A stretch of DNA of 23,103 bases from a virus: positions 1-23,103 of IMG/VR virus record IMGVR_UViG_3300042868_007957, one strand, 5' to 3'. Position numbers and translations under genes: made by a program. Under the pieces are notes generated by a model. It worked only from the letters and a program-made list of their open reading frames with translations. It had not been told where the DNA came from and did not search any database. How positions within the stretch are numbered: the stretch's first letter is position 1; each line of letters opens with the position of its first letter. Positions 8,501-23,103 of this stretch are shown one piece after another.

Positions 8501-8532
8501 TTAAAAAGCCCACACGCTTAATTTATGGGCTT
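8501..8532 (-). terminator. Terminator before the tape measure gene
   Basis: The minus strand has AAGCCCA (8532-8526), a 13-base loop and TGGGCTT (8512-8506), followed by TTTAATT. The 5' arm overlaps the stop codon of the upstream ORF. Such a leaky terminator would lower tape measure expression relative to the tube and chaperone genes upstream. Confidence 0.7.
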
Positions 8533-8827
8533 AATTCTTATAGTTTAAAACTAACTTATATAAATATTTAGTATATAATTCAATAATTGAGTATTTATTC
8601 AAAATTTGCTCTGCATAAAAATCATTATCAGAAACTAAATACATTGCTATTTTATAAATATTAAAATCAATAGAGTGGTCGTCAAATTCAATAGTAAATA
8701 AATCGGTTGTTTTTATTTCTTTAAAATTATCAATTTTATATTTGGATTTATTTTTAACTTTATTTTCTAAATCCTCTTTATTTTGAACTTTCCGATTATA
8801 AATATAAGTTGTATAATCACCTTCCAA
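8531..8827 (-). CDS. Probable frameshift extension of the tail assembly chaperone (T-like part)
   Basis: This frame lies between the chaperone ORF and the tape measure gene, where lambda-like phages encode the T part of G-T. The only conventional start is a TTG at 8827 with no ribosome site. There is no ATG before a Met deep inside the domain (KIAMYLV). The frame is open further upstream to 8914 (stop TAG at 8915-8917), overlapping the chaperone ORF by 50 bases. It is therefore probably made only as a frameshifted extension adding about 120 residues. The protein is Lys/Asp/Tyr-rich and helical. Assignment rests on position and missing start. Confidence 0.6.
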   Translation of the reverse strand: MEGDYTTYIYNRKVQNKEDLENKVKNKSKYKIDNFKEIKTTDLFTIEFDDHSIDFNIYKIAMYLVSDNDFYAEQILNKYSIIELYTKYLYKLVLNYKN

Positions 8828-8864
8828 AATAAAAAAGATTTCATTATTTAAAATCTTATTTATC

Positions 8865-8914
8865 TCAAATTCTTGATAGTTTTTTAACTTTACGAAAGTA
8901 AGTAATAAATTGCT
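8865..8914 (-). other. Predicted frameshift window of the tail assembly chaperone
   Basis: The two frames overlap only here. The downstream frame is +1 (equivalent to -2) relative to the chaperone frame. Two candidate slip sites lie in chaperone phase: TTT followed by C at 8897-8894, where a Phe tRNA could re-pair on TTC (+1), and an A6 run at 8885-8880 in GTT AAA AAA CTA, which could allow a -2 slip. Known G-T systems mostly use -1, with -2 in Mu and +1 in some others. A +1 slip at TTT-C would give a fusion of about 243 residues. Confidence 0.45.
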
Positions 8915-9263
8915 CTATTTTTTCTTTATCTTGTTCTAACCAAAAGTCCTCAACAAATTCTTGTTCAACTTCTAAATTATAATTAATTAATTTACAATAA
9001 ACTAAATAATTATGTAACTCTACATCTACATCAATTTCTCTTTGTTGTAATGCAAATAAATCTTTTATTAAATTAATATTTTCAGTTTCTTTGTATTCTA
9101 TTGCTTTTTGTGCTAATTCGGTTTCAACTTCACTTTGTTTTAAATCTCTTAATATTTTTAAACTTTCTGCATATACTTTTGCCGTAAAAATTCTTAATTT
9201 GTACTCTTTTAATTTACCATTAAAGTATAATTCAATACTTTTTAATTGTTCTAATTTTTCCAT
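8865..9263 (-). CDS. Tail assembly chaperone (G-like, 132 aa)
   Basis: Located between the tail tube and tape measure genes, the fixed place of G-like chaperones that bind the tape measure during tail assembly. The protein is almost entirely helical and charged (VYAESLKILRDLKQSEVETELAQK, NLIKDLFALQQREIDVDVELH), 132 aa, close to the usual 120 to 150. The start is ATG at 9263. It ends with TGA at 8865, beyond the frameshift window at 8865-8914. The call comes from position, length and the overlapping second frame, since chaperone sequences are poorly conserved. Confidence 0.75.
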   Translation of the reverse strand: MEKLEQLKSIELYFNGKLKEYKLRIFTAKVYAESLKILRDLKQSEVETELAQKAIEYKETENINLIKDLFALQQREIDVDVELHNYLVYCKLINYNLEVEQEFVEDFWLEQDKEKIEQFITYFRKVKKLSRI

Positions 9264-9281
9264 TATTTTTATCTAAATATA

Positions 9282-9322: not shown

Positions 9323-9901
9323 TTATACTGGGGTTGCACTTACCCATTCGCCATAAGAACCAGGAGCCAAAACTAATGCAGTTGAATATGTTACTCCCAT
9401 TGCTGTAAATGCAGTTGTAGGTACTGTAATTGTACTTTCAACTGCTATTGTAGTAAATTGTAGTGGTGTTTCGTTGAAAGCCCCTTGTGCAGTTGTTACT
9501 GAACCTGAGTCACCTGAAACTATACCTAAACCTACAAATACTCTTGTAGTTGCTTCTGCTTGTGGCTTTTTAAGCGGATATATAATAACATCACTTGTAA
9601 CACTTCCACTTGCTTGTGACTCTTGAATTTGCGAACCATCTTCAAATACTACTGAAACAGTTTCGGTTGAAGCCGTTGTAATTCTTGTATCTAAAAATGT
9701 AGCCATTGCCGAAGAGTTATCCCTTGCAGTTAAATCAATAACTACCGCTCCTTTATTTGGATGCCCTGTAATTGCTACACCTTCCAAAGTGTTAATTGTG
9801 ATTACTGGCGTTGTTGATGCATTACCACCTGTTACTCCAAATACTCCAAAGGCGTTGGTACCACTAAAACCAACCTTACTTAATACTGTTGTTGCACTCA
9901 T
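9323..9901 (-). CDS. Major tail tube protein (192 aa)
   Basis: Small, Ser/Thr/Val/Gly-rich, beta-rich protein without Cys. It is encoded just before the tail assembly chaperone and followed by a strong terminator, as expected for the highly expressed tube subunit. The region TSDVIIYPLKKPQAEATTRVFVGLGIVSGDSG and the closing GSYGEWVSATPV are compatible with the tube fold. The ATG at 9901 shares its A with the TAA of the glycosyltransferase gene (TAATG), so translation is coupled. The many Ser/Thr residues make it a plausible substrate of that enzyme. I do not recognise a named family by sequence; the call is from position, size and composition. Confidence 0.75.
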   Translation of the reverse strand: MSATTVLSKVGFSGTNAFGVFGVTGGNASTTPVITINTLEGVAITGHPNKGAVVIDLTARDNSSAMATFLDTRITTASTETVSVVFEDGSQIQESQASGSVTSDVIIYPLKKPQAEATTRVFVGLGIVSGDSGSVTTAQGAFNETPLQFTTIAVESTITVPTTAFTAMGVTYSTALVLAPGSYGEWVSATPV

Positions 9902-10599
9902 TATGCTAACTCCTTTTTAATTAATTGTTTCTTAATATTCTGTAATAAATCATTTGCTGTTAAATGGTCTTTTTGCATTTTGTTTATTGTTTTTGATTTC
10001 TCGTATAATGCAATATGATGATATTCCTCAATCTTTTGTGCCATACGTTCTTTAGGCACTTCATAACCAATATGATGTATAACCAAAGGTGTTGAATAAA
10101 TTATTTTATTTTTTGGTATTGATATATTTTCGTGTATATCACCTTGCCAAAAAGAGCCCTTAACAAATAACTTGCATTGTGGCATAACTTCGGTATCATA
10201 CAATCCATACTTATTTTGACAAAATGTTTTTACGCTAAAATTGTAAAACATAGCACCACCAAAATTATCTAATTTATCATATTCTAAAATATGTAATTTG
10301 AGTTGTTCGTGTTGGTGAATTAATAATCTCTCATCAGCATCTAAACTTAAAATAAATTTTTTATCACTTAATCTTAATGCTTGATTTCTCGCATAACAAA
10401 AACTAAATACTTCAGTATATTCTAAAATTGCATAAGTTTCATTTTCGTTATTTTCTAAAATTGTTAAAGTATCTTTATCAGAACTTTTAGTCATTACTAA
10501 AATTAACTTAGCAAAATTTGGTAATGATTTTCTCAAATCGTGTAAAAAATGCTTGTCTTCTTCTCTAAATATAACTACTACATCTAATAATTTAATCAT
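9901..10599 (-). CDS. GT2-family glycosyltransferase in the tail operon (232 aa)
   Basis: GT-A fold glycosyltransferase that should transfer a nucleotide-activated sugar. Seen in the sequence: the N-terminal strand LLDVVVIF, the block FCYARNQAL at 68-75, the metal-binding DADE at 87-90, the WQGDIHENI motif at 151-159, and VIHHIGYE at 173-180. This order (ARNxAL, DADE, G-x-HE, HxGY) is shared with SunS-like GT2 enzymes that modify peptides. The C-terminal about 40 residues are helical. It has no membrane segment, so it acts in the cytoplasm. Both ends overlap neighbours by TAATG, locking it in the tail operon. A virion protein, probably the tube, is the likely acceptor; this is inference. Confidence 0.88.
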   Translation of the reverse strand: MIKLLDVVVIFREEDKHFLHDLRKSLPNFAKLILVMTKSSDKDTLTILENNENETYAILEYTEVFSFCYARNQALRLSDKKFILSLDADERLLIHQHEQLKLHILEYDKLDNFGGAMFYNFSVKTFCQNKYGLYDTEVMPQCKLFVKGSFWQGDIHENISIPKNKIIYSTPLVIHHIGYEVPKERMAQKIEEYHHIALYEKSKTINKMQKDHLTANDLLQNIKKQLIKKELA

Positions 10600-20452: not shown

Positions 20453-21167
20453 ATAGGGCTCCTTTTATGATATTATTAATTTCTAATTCAAATTCTTTTA
20501 CATCAAAATAATTTTCATTTTTAACTTCAGGTTTTAATCCTGTTTCCATATTTGTTTTTTCTTCAATTGCTTCTATTTTGCTTTCCATTTCAGATAGCAT
20601 ACTATCAATTTCGGCTTTAATTAATCTAATTCTATCATAGTTCTTTTGTGATAAAACTCTACCTGCTTTTAATTCATTATCATTTTTAATAAATGTTTTA
20701 GGTTCGGCTGGGGTGGGTGTTAAACTTAATTCTCCGATTAGCCATTGCTTAATCTCATTATTTGATTTAATTACACTATGCCCAACCGCACCACTACTAA
20801 CACCTAAATTACCACTTTTAATCATATCTTTAATAGCGTCTAAATACTTTTGATTATCATCTATCTGCAACTCTTTCCATAGGTTTGGATTAAGTGCTTT
20901 TAACTCCGCTTCAAAACTCAAACCATAATCATCAATAGCATATTTAATAGTAGTTCCAATTGGTACTCTTTTTAATGTTTCATCTAAGCCGTGATTATAC
21001 ATTAATATTGTTTTGCTATCATTCTCAACGCCTAAAAAAGTATTCTTAGTAAAATATTCATTTTGCAAATCAACGCTATCAAAAACAACTGCATAACCTT
21101 TGATTATGTTATCATTAATTGTTAGTTTTGCTTTTACGTTATCTAAATATGTATTATCTATATTCAT
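20439..21167 (-). CDS. Prohead maturation protease, HK97 gp4-like (242 aa)
   Basis: Serine protease that cleaves the capsid delta domain during head maturation. Family features: IIKGYAVVFDSVDLQNEYF at 21-39, the catalytic His59 in MYNHG, then VPIGTTIKYAIDDYGLSFEAEL, the catalytic Ser in NLGVSSGAVGH (Ser124 or Ser125), and WLIGELSLTPTPAEP at 142-156, whose Glu146 is the likely third residue. The C-terminal about 70 residues are helical and charged and may interact with the scaffold-like domain. It overlaps the capsid gene by 14 bases. Start ATG at 21167 with GAGG nearby. Confidence 0.93.
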   Translation of the reverse strand: MNIDNTYLDNVKAKLTINDNIIKGYAVVFDSVDLQNEYFTKNTFLGVENDSKTILMYNHGLDETLKRVPIGTTIKYAIDDYGLSFEAELKALNPNLWKELQIDDNQKYLDAIKDMIKSGNLGVSSGAVGHSVIKSNNEIKQWLIGELSLTPTPAEPKTFIKNDNELKAGRVLSQKNYDRIRLIKAEIDSMLSEMESKIEAIEEKTNMETGLKPEVKNENYFDVKEFELEINNIIKGALYGAK

Positions 21168-21295
21168 TTTAAAACCTCAATTTCTTTTTTTTTCTTTTTT
21201 TTAATTTTCATAATCTTTGGATTATTCAAATTATTTGTAATTATATCATTTAAACTAAACAAATAAGTTTCATTATATTTTTTAGTTTTTTTCAA
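21164..21295 (-). CDS. Tiny Lys-rich ORF between MuF and protease (43 aa)
   Basis: An open frame fits exactly between the two genes. Its TTG start (21295) overlaps the TGA of the MuF gene (TTGA), and its TGA stop overlaps the ATG of the protease (ATGA). It encodes MKKTKKYNETYLFSLNDIIT followed by NNLNNPK and a poly-Lys tract (KIKKKKKKEIEVLK). The double overlap is the arrangement of translationally coupled genes. It may serve only to carry ribosomes to the protease start, or encode a basic peptide binding DNA or the acidic head proteins. The TTG start and A-rich content leave real doubt. Confidence 0.45.
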   Translation of the reverse strand: MKKTKKYNETYLFSLNDIITNNLNNPKIMKIKKKKKKEIEVLK

Positions 21296-21921
21296 TTTCT
21301 TATCCCACGTGTTACACATCTACAATTAACCGCTTCTTTTGCTGGCAATCCTGAGCCTGCTGGGTGCGGTGTTTCATAACCGCCTACACTAAACATACCC
21401 TTATCATTTTGCTTTTGTCCATCGGCTTTACGGTGGCTTATTCTTACTTTACTATCTCTTTGACTAATCCACATCAATTTAAACTTATATTTATCTGCAA
21501 TTACTCTTTTAGTATTTTCACTTGTATAGGTTGCAACCGTACGCCCTATTGCATTAACTCTGCTTGCCTTATATACCAAATCAAACTTATTATTAATAGT
21601 TTTAGCAATTTCTTTTGTAAGTTCCTCTTTGCTTAAATCTTTGCCTTGCTCTTTTGCTTTTTTAATAATTTCGTCAGTGTCTTTAATTAATGTTTCTAAA
21701 GTATCTTTGTCTAATCTGCCTGCATCTTTTAAAACTTTTGTAATTTCTTTTGCAAAGTCATCACCAGTTTTATCACTCAAATTAACTTCTTTTAAAAGTG
21801 CTTTTAATGTTTCCATAAAAAGTGAAGTTTTTAAACTTGATGTTCTTTTAGCAATCATACTTAAATAGTAATTCAAATCAAAGTAATAATTATATTCAAC
21901 TTTTATATTATCTTTTTTCAA
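21292..21921 (-). CDS. Mu F-like minor head protein (C-terminal and central part)
   Basis: Minor capsid protein of the Mu gpF / SPP1 gp7 family, bound near the portal and involved in head morphogenesis and ejection. The diagnostic C-terminal domain is present: WISQRDSKVRISHRKADGQ, GGYETPHPAGSGLPAKEA, then NCRC and VTR. The first in-frame start is TTG at 21921, without a ribosome site. The same frame is open upstream to 22083 and encodes MuF-like helical sequence (IWKAYDKTNSIYAKKLEKIY) with no ATG, GTG or TTG. The real protein is therefore probably longer, made by frameshifting from the portal gene or from a rare ATT start near 22065. Confidence 0.88.
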   Translation of the reverse strand: MKKDNIKVEYNYYFDLNYYLSMIAKRTSSLKTSLFMETLKALLKEVNLSDKTGDDFAKEITKVLKDAGRLDKDTLETLIKDTDEIIKKAKEQGKDLSKEELTKEIAKTINNKFDLVYKASRVNAIGRTVATYTSENTKRVIADKYKFKLMWISQRDSKVRISHRKADGQKQNDKGMFSVGGYETPHPAGSGLPAKEAVNCRCVTRGIRN

Positions 21922-22083
21922 AGGTTTGTTAATATTTCTAACTACATCTTTTTGAATTAAACTAAAAATGCTAATATAAATTTTTTCTAATTTTTTAGCA
22001 TAGATGCTATTAGTTTTATCGTATGCCTTCCAAATCTTTGTTTTTTCTAATTCGCTTAACTCAATACTTTTTTTTTTATACTT
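21922..22083 (-). other. Open N-terminal extension of MuF without a start codon
   Basis: In the MuF frame, codons from 22083 down to 21922 contain no stop and no ATG, GTG or TTG. They encode ELSELEKTKIWKAYDKTN and further helix (SIFSLIQKDVVRNINKP), which reads as genuine MuF N-terminal sequence. A TAA lies just upstream at 22086-22084. The segment overlaps the last 28 bases of the portal gene. It can be translated only by frameshifting, an unusual start codon, or after a sequencing correction in the A10 run. Confidence 0.7.
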
Positions 22084-23103
22084 TTACTTATTTCACTTTC
22101 AATTAAAGATTTTAATTTTTTAGTTTCATCATCGGCTTCATCAAGTTCGTCTATTTCATTTTCAGTTTCTATTTCGGTTTCCATTTCGGGTTCGGTTTCA
22201 GGTGTTTCAATTTCATTGTCATATTCGTCTTTAACTTCAAAATCAAATAATTCCCTTAATTCATTTTTGCCTATTGCTTCACCCATCCAAAGAGTTTGTG
22301 CAATTAAAACTTTGTCATTTAAACTTTCATACTTAAACGGTGTGTATTGTATTGAATATTCGCCATTATCATATTGCTTTAAATGTTTGTTTATTGCACT
22401 TAAAAATCTATTTGTGAGTGGGTCAATAGTTTGCTCATAAATAGTTGCTTTCATTTCTTTATAGTTACTTGTATATGCTGGGGTACCATTAACAAAATCT
22501 AACATCAAACCATACATTGAAGTAATTAGTTGCTTTAACTCTGTATTTAATCCACCTGCAAAGGCACCTGTATTTTGTGCAATAATGTTATTACCAATAT
22601 CCATACGTTCATACTTGGTATTTTGCTCACCAGCAAATACTATCGGTGCATATTTACCATAACGAGAGTTAAGTGCATCTTGCCAATTTATCTGCTCTTG
22701 TGGTGATATAGGGTCGTGGTCGTTAGTTAATACAATGTTTGGTACGCCTTGACGATTTAATTCGGTGTTTGCATTATCTAACATCGTATAATAAGCACCT
22801 AAAACATCTTTTAAAGCATTGTAATACTTTGATATACCTTTATAGTAGTAAGTAGGATTATCGCTATACGTTGGTATTGACATTGTTTTAATATGGCATA
22901 CTTCGGTTGCTGGTATAGTAATCCATTTATTATTTAATGTTAAACTATAACTATCAATTAAATTGTAACTACCTGCATTAATTTCAACTTCACGGCTCGG
23001 CAATAATATAATTTCAACTGGATATTTTGCTTTTGTGCCACCATTATAGTTACTTACTCTAAACCACAAATAAACATTACCTTCAATATAATACCAATAT
23101 GTT
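22056..23103 (-). CDS. Portal protein, N-terminus beyond the window
   Basis: The dodecameric portal forms the DNA entry channel. The frame is open to the right edge and reads YYIEGNVYLWFRVSNYNGG at its visible start; a GN-x-Y motif followed by strand and IILLPSREVEI is typical of HK97-type portals. Further portal features are CHIKTMSIPTYSDNPTYYYKG, the LNRQGVPNIVL segment, and the helical clip and wing region to about residue 270 of the visible part. The C-terminal tail is a very acidic, Glu/Thr-rich linker (PETEPEMETEIETENEIDEL) and then a basic helix ending SIKKKVLS. A TTG at 23069 is internal, not the start. The gene ends in the A10 run leading into MuF. Confidence 0.92.
   Translation of the reverse strand, partial: TYWYYIEGNVYLWFRVSNYNGGTKAKYPVEIILLPSREVEINAGSYNLIDSYSLTLNNKWITIPATEVCHIKTMSIPTYSDNPTYYYKGISKYYNALKDVLGAYYTMLDNANTELNRQGVPNIVLTNDHDPISPQEQINWQDALNSRYGKYAPIVFAGEQNTKYERMDIGNNIIAQNTGAFAGGLNTELKQLITSMYGLMLDFVNGTPAYTSNYKEMKATIYEQTIDPLTNRFLSAINKHLKQYDNGEYSIQYTPFKYESLNDKVLIAQTLWMGEAIGKNELRELFDFEVKDEYDNEIETPETEPEMETEIETENEIDELDEADDETKKLKSLIESEISKSIKKKVLS
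22068..22077 (-). other. A10 slippery run at the portal/MuF junction
   Basis: The minus strand reads AGT ATA AAA AAA AAA GTA TTG AGT TAA in portal phase. Ten A residues occupy 22077-22068, so A-AAA-AAA heptamers lie in the correct phase for -1 slippage of two Lys tRNAs. A -1 shift enters the MuF frame (AAA AAA AAA AGT ATT GAG), bypasses the portal stop at 22056 and gives a portal-MuF fusion. Homopolymer slippage by RNA polymerase would have the same effect, and a sequencing indel must be excluded. Confidence 0.55.

Follow-up and report, generated by a model that had tools for sequence, protein, structure and literature searches.

A conserved run of ten adenines where the portal and MuF frames overlap points to a probable slippage-made portal-MuF fusion in a phage family

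Where does translation of the MuF protein begin in a phage whose MuF reading frame opens inside the end of the portal gene? This question is raised by the minus strand of a 23,103-nt stretch of viral DNA (hereafter the window; IMG/VR record IMGVR_UViG_3300042868_007957). The window holds the 3' part of a portal gene (22056..23103, minus strand; 348 codons), the 5' end of which lies past the window edge. The encoded C-terminus is SEISKSIKKKVLS, followed by a TAA stop (22056..22058), and a short acidic stretch, ETPETEPEMETEIETENEIDELDEADDE, comes before the joint. The MuF frame is open from stop to stop over 263 codons (22083..21292, minus strand) and overlaps the portal frame by 28 nt. Inside this overlap is a run of exactly ten As (A10; 22068..22077), and the portal stop follows 9 nt 3' of it. 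The portal frame reads AGT ATA AAA AAA AAA GTA TTG AGT TAA across the joint, and the MuF frame, -1 relative to it, reads AAA AAA AAA AGT ATT GAG TTA AGC. The first-pass annotation had pointed out A_AAA_AAA in the portal frame; read in that frame, the run (22077..22068) presents it twice. A shift would enter the MuF frame within the AGT codon at 22068..22066 and continue over 21292..22067 to a TGA stop at 21292.

The portal and MuF identities given in that annotation were borne out by profile searches. The portal fragment matched the Pfam profile PF04860 (Phage_portal; E 5.9e-15, residues 2-285) across the portal core, as expected of an HK97-type portal, and the PHROGs portal family phrog_12 (E 2e-16; 3.7e-26 for the portal of a full-length relative). 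Portals are 465-468 aa long in the full-length relatives. The MuF frame continues after the joint with a helical N-terminal part and then a MuF core, which matched PF04233 (Phage_Mu_F; E 6.6e-9, residues 154-258) and carries the conserved C-terminal NCRC motif. A PDB profile search with MuF gave no match, and an AlphaFold model built with 11 sequences had a mean pLDDT of 60, exceeding 70 only in part of the C-terminal core. Known phages yielded no tblastn hit to the portal fragment and three weak hits to the full-length relative, and scanning a genome collection with the portal returned no relative and hence no host. The portal gene lacks an obvious ATG in L029 (4457), L030, L031 and L044 (5556), where the candidate starts are a conserved TTG and an in-frame GTG about nine codons on. 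Elsewhere, the window encodes a ThyX thymidylate synthase (850-1512; PF02511, E 1e-46) and, among the tail genes, a protein that looks glycosyltransferase-like by eye (9901-10599, minus strand).

The MuF frame contains no ATG, GTG or TTG before codon 54, a TTG at 21919..21921 in the window, or codon 38, a GTG in two relatives. The first-pass observation that this frame lacks an upstream start, overlaps the portal end and next offers the TTG at 21921 therefore holds. That TTG is unlikely to be the real start, since it is missing in two of the five relatives. Codons 10-36 lie ahead of the first start in every lineage and vary at 1, 1 and 5 sites in codon positions 1, 2 and 3, a third-position bias that rests on seven variable sites; up to codon 54 the counts are 4, 3 and 9. 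The head morphogenesis family phrog_2468 aligns from residue 28 of the 263-codon frame. The N-terminus (KTKIWKAYDKTN...) also aligns with residues 507-546 of L081 (pairwise E 1e-5), which form the linker-to-MuF segment of a natural portal-MuF protein encoded by one ORF. This match suggests that the MuF unit starts right at the joint.

MuF could instead be a separate protein, translated from a non-standard start (ATT, 22065..22063) or from an internal TTG, GTG or ATG, with initiation coupled to portal termination. The ATT is conserved in all contigs, and two distant relatives do have separate MuF genes whose own start overlaps the portal end (TTG in L021, ATG in L036). However, no Shine-Dalgarno sequence precedes the ATT, and initiation at ATT is very uncommon. 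Lineages do not share the same first standard start, and TTG54, GTG38 and a conserved ATG75 would all cut the conserved N-terminal segment. None of the close relatives has an ATG-started MuF covering the same N-terminus. Separate initiation would also leave the conserved A10 unexplained, and we consider it improbable.

We searched for relatives of the window by MuF, portal and junction-DNA scans. Five other IMG/VR contigs, from five other datasets (3300042549, 3300027212, 3300020043, 3300027956 and 3300009170), span the joint. All five have exactly A10 in the same phase, followed by the same portal stop, so that A_AAA_AAA is rightly phased ahead of the 0-frame stop in each, as expected of a programmed recoding site. 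The contig from 3300042549 is identical to the window across 8.1 kb, while the others share 83-97% DNA identity with it over the aligned stretches and vary in the flanks of the joint. Because these relatives are few and close, some of this conservation will reflect shared descent. Nevertheless, a 59-nt block holding the A10 and the portal stop (22027..22085, minus strand) shows no difference among the five distinct lineages (window, G001, G002, G003 and G005) and is the longest invariant block in portal and MuF. An invariant run of at least 57 nt was reached in 3.2% of codon-column shuffles, a modest test. Pairwise alignment shows other A/T runs of at least 7 keeping their length in two of six cases (G001) and eight of 14 (G005), compared with four of four distinct lineages for the A10. 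Neither of the outcomes that the first-pass annotation had named as refuting the frameshift, an ATG-started MuF with the same N-terminus or a run of A9 or A11, was observed in these contigs. A scan with the major capsid protein added one further contig, L126, which ends before the joint.

No run length other than A10 was found in a scan of 2.9 million viral contigs that tolerated 6-16 As. The only extra match, L011, is unrelated and was discarded as a chance pattern match. This bears on phase variation, in which the run would change length in the DNA at replication and switch the phage population between split and fused genes. A run of ten has the length for frequent mutation, and poly-A/T runs are known sites of phase variation (PMC3711429). 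Yet every consensus reads A10, with neither A9 nor A11 in the scan, which makes such switching very improbable.

A related possibility is that the gene is truly fused by an A11 and that one A was lost in every assembly, leaving no recoding to explain. Homopolymer indels can indeed mimic a split gene, and an apparent precedent for a portal-MuF frameshift, Brevibacillus phage Emery, is a case in point. The first-pass annotation had stated that no well-described portal-MuF frameshift is known; we found one prediction, a slippage in the 'head morphogenesis' gene of Emery (gp4/gp5, KC595516), which its authors did not recognize as portal-MuF (PMC4168068). In that record (L128, 3171-5350), gp4 is portal-like (Portal_T4, E 5e-4) and the extension is MuF (E 3.8e-12). 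Five related prophages with 60-91% protein identity to Emery have a single uninterrupted ORF of 725-751 aa, and its two closest relatives have T7 where Emery has T6. The predicted slip in Emery is thus probably a one-T indel that arose either in the phage itself or in its record. We therefore rejected Emery as a supporting precedent. The same comparison gives the opposite answer for the family of the window, where the split is conserved: all six contigs, each from a different dataset, have A10, and A11 appears in none. A plain fusion would need neither the stop 9 nt on nor the invariance of the 57-59 surrounding nt. We regard a lost A as a shade less probable than separate initiation. The Emery case cautions that an isolated prediction of a portal-MuF frameshift can turn out to be an indel; comparison with relatives tells the two apart.

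Selection also seems to act against long A runs in this phage, the portal-MuF joint excepted. We compared the 24 larger genes of the window with 400 shuffles of their synonymous codons. Runs of at least seven As occurred seven times against 20 expected, and runs of at least eight once against 8.0 expected; none of the 400 shuffles was as low in either count. Runs of at least nine occurred once against 4.0 expected (P 0.025). The sole run of eight or more in these genes lies in the 28-nt portal-MuF overlap, which makes up 0.15% of the coding sequence. The depletion of A7+ and A8+ runs in the minus-strand genes suggests selection against slippage in an AT-rich phage. Two very small ORFs, each holding an A8, were excluded from the count. 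A lysine-rich ORF of 51 aa (21164-21319, minus strand) overlaps the MuF end and the prohead protease start (ATGA overlap) and contains runs of A8 and A9; this region is unaligned in G001 and G002. Taken together, the conserved run, phase and stop, the avoidance of A runs elsewhere and the coding-like N-terminus make it unlikely that the joint arises from a sequencing error or from a MuF N-terminus that is never read.

The arrangement is best explained if the portal and MuF frames together encode a single protein unit, from which slippage makes a minority fusion of about 724 aa (probability around 0.8). Most transcripts or ribosomes would hold the A10 frame and yield a portal of about 468 aa ending in KKKVLS. 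In a minority, RNA polymerase slippage would add one A to the mRNA (A10 to A11) or drop two, or alternatively the ribosome would shift -1 on A_AAA_AAA. The slipped product would consist of portal, acidic linker and MuF. Whether the frame shifts by -1 or one A is added, the joint peptide would be SIKKK-SIELSELEK, which contains SIKKKSIELSELEK and has three lysines, not the four of the peptide predicted earlier (SIKKKK-SIELSELEK). To our knowledge, no conserved portal-MuF recoding has been described before.

Which agent would slip? The first-pass annotation had proposed a -1 frameshift. The joining of the frames at the A10 is supported by the run, phase and stop in all five relatives, but the ribosome need not be the agent, as RNA polymerase may act. 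Runs of more than seven As are a transcriptional slip motif, while A_AAA_AAA is a ribosomal motif and among the consensus prokaryotic heptamers (PMC3711429). Slippage by enterobacterial polymerase has been reported from nine As or Ts upward (PMC6260861), a length that the A10 attains. E. coli RNA polymerase slips more readily on runs of T than of A (PMC6260861), a point against slippage at the A10. A precedent is Citrobacter rodentium tssM1: a stop lies 28 nt after an A11 there, and slippage of RNA polymerase on this run, unaided by stimulators, yields about 20% of extended product (PMC4256274).

A shift by the ribosome alone, with no share for RNA polymerase, would agree with the portal phase, which sets the heptamer correctly twice, and with the tail chaperone pair of the same phage, which likewise overlaps in a shifted frame. 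Seven As would suffice for it, however, yet ten are kept. The three kept AAA codons are weak evidence either way, since AAA makes up 84% of the lysine codons. No upstream Shine-Dalgarno (AGGAG-like) element was seen, and the downstream RNA, folded as pseudoknot-free structures, does no better than shuffles (z -0.7 to 0.3). The joint thus appears to differ from dnaX-type ribosomal frameshifting, which combines an upstream Shine-Dalgarno sequence with a downstream hairpin or pseudoknot, and efficient ribosomal shifting is not supported. A purely ribosomal shift seems to us possible but rather unlikely. Given the tssM1 precedent and the missing stimulators, we judge RNA polymerase about twice as likely (roughly 2:1) as the ribosome to be the slipping agent.

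The tail ORF pair (8531-9272, minus strand) lies just upstream of the tape-measure gene. The two ORFs overlap by 50 nt (8914..8865), and the second is in a shifted frame (+1 or -2) without an early start, in a stretch that is kept in G005. Neither has a PHROGs match. They probably represent a tail-assembly-chaperone frameshift near GTTAAAAAACTA.

A slippage-made fusion would have consequences for the head. The portal is a 12-mer ring set at a single capsid vertex, so infrequent slipping would place MuF inside the head on just one subunit, or a few, of each ring. That slippage occurs, at what rate, and that it fixes the ratio of MuF-bearing to plain portal subunits is what we infer from this arrangement. 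We see about an even chance that MuF is dosed per capsid by transcriptional slippage, with the fusion co-assembling with plain portal in one ring. If so, the MuF copy number in the head would be set by the slip rate and not by a binding equilibrium. We know of no explanation for how only one or two MuF copies are placed at a twelve-fold portal, and a fusion that depends on slippage would offer a simple means of dosing. MuF on only some of the 12 subunits would be in line with SPP1, where each capsid contains one or two copies of the portal-binding MuF protein gp7 (PMC5576092). MuF is the proposed carrier with which temperate phages bring cargo domains into their heads (PMC5576092, PMC6316719), so its dosing would bear on cargo loading.

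Finally, we compared the joint with known systems. Portal and MuF form one gene in some phages, as the first-pass annotation had noted. Bacillus phage Silence encodes such a protein of 700 aa (portal 52-379, MuF 579-693), and single-gene fusions are also found in Microbacterium phage clusters EA3, EA5, EA8 and EB (PMC7302621). A terminase panel of 80 contigs contained four or five single-ORF fusions (L066, L081 and L111; L116 is weaker) and a few separate MuF genes, and no second homopolymer-linked pair of portal and start-less MuF. The phage family of the window thus appears to stand between two known layouts, the fused gene and the separate genes. Like the single-gene fusions (phrog_2662, Silence, Microbacterium phages), the slipped product would join portal domain, linker and MuF domain in one chain, encoded directly after the large terminase in a similar gene order and of similar length (700 versus about 724 aa). 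Those fusions are made from every transcript in one frame, whereas here the portal half and the MuF half match phrog_2662 separately, and a stop and a -1 offset at the A10 lie between them, so that slippage is needed. The adjacent SPP1 genes for gp6 (portal) and gp7 (MuF) resemble the pair described here, but their separate products are joined by binding and not by a shared chain. In lambda G/GT, the major head proteins of phages A2 and T3, and SPP1 gp17.1*, a minority of the product gains a C-terminal domain by frameshifting, which sets a ratio; these are tail chaperone, capsid or tail-tube proteins, and none is a portal receiving MuF. The joint resembles C. rodentium tssM1 in its long A run shortly before a stop, in the C-terminal domain that becomes accessible with one added A, in the lack of stimulators and, if slippage occurs, in two length variants made in a set ratio. 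tssM1 is a bacterial secretion gene in which slippage was measured, whereas the portal-MuF joint is known from its sequence.
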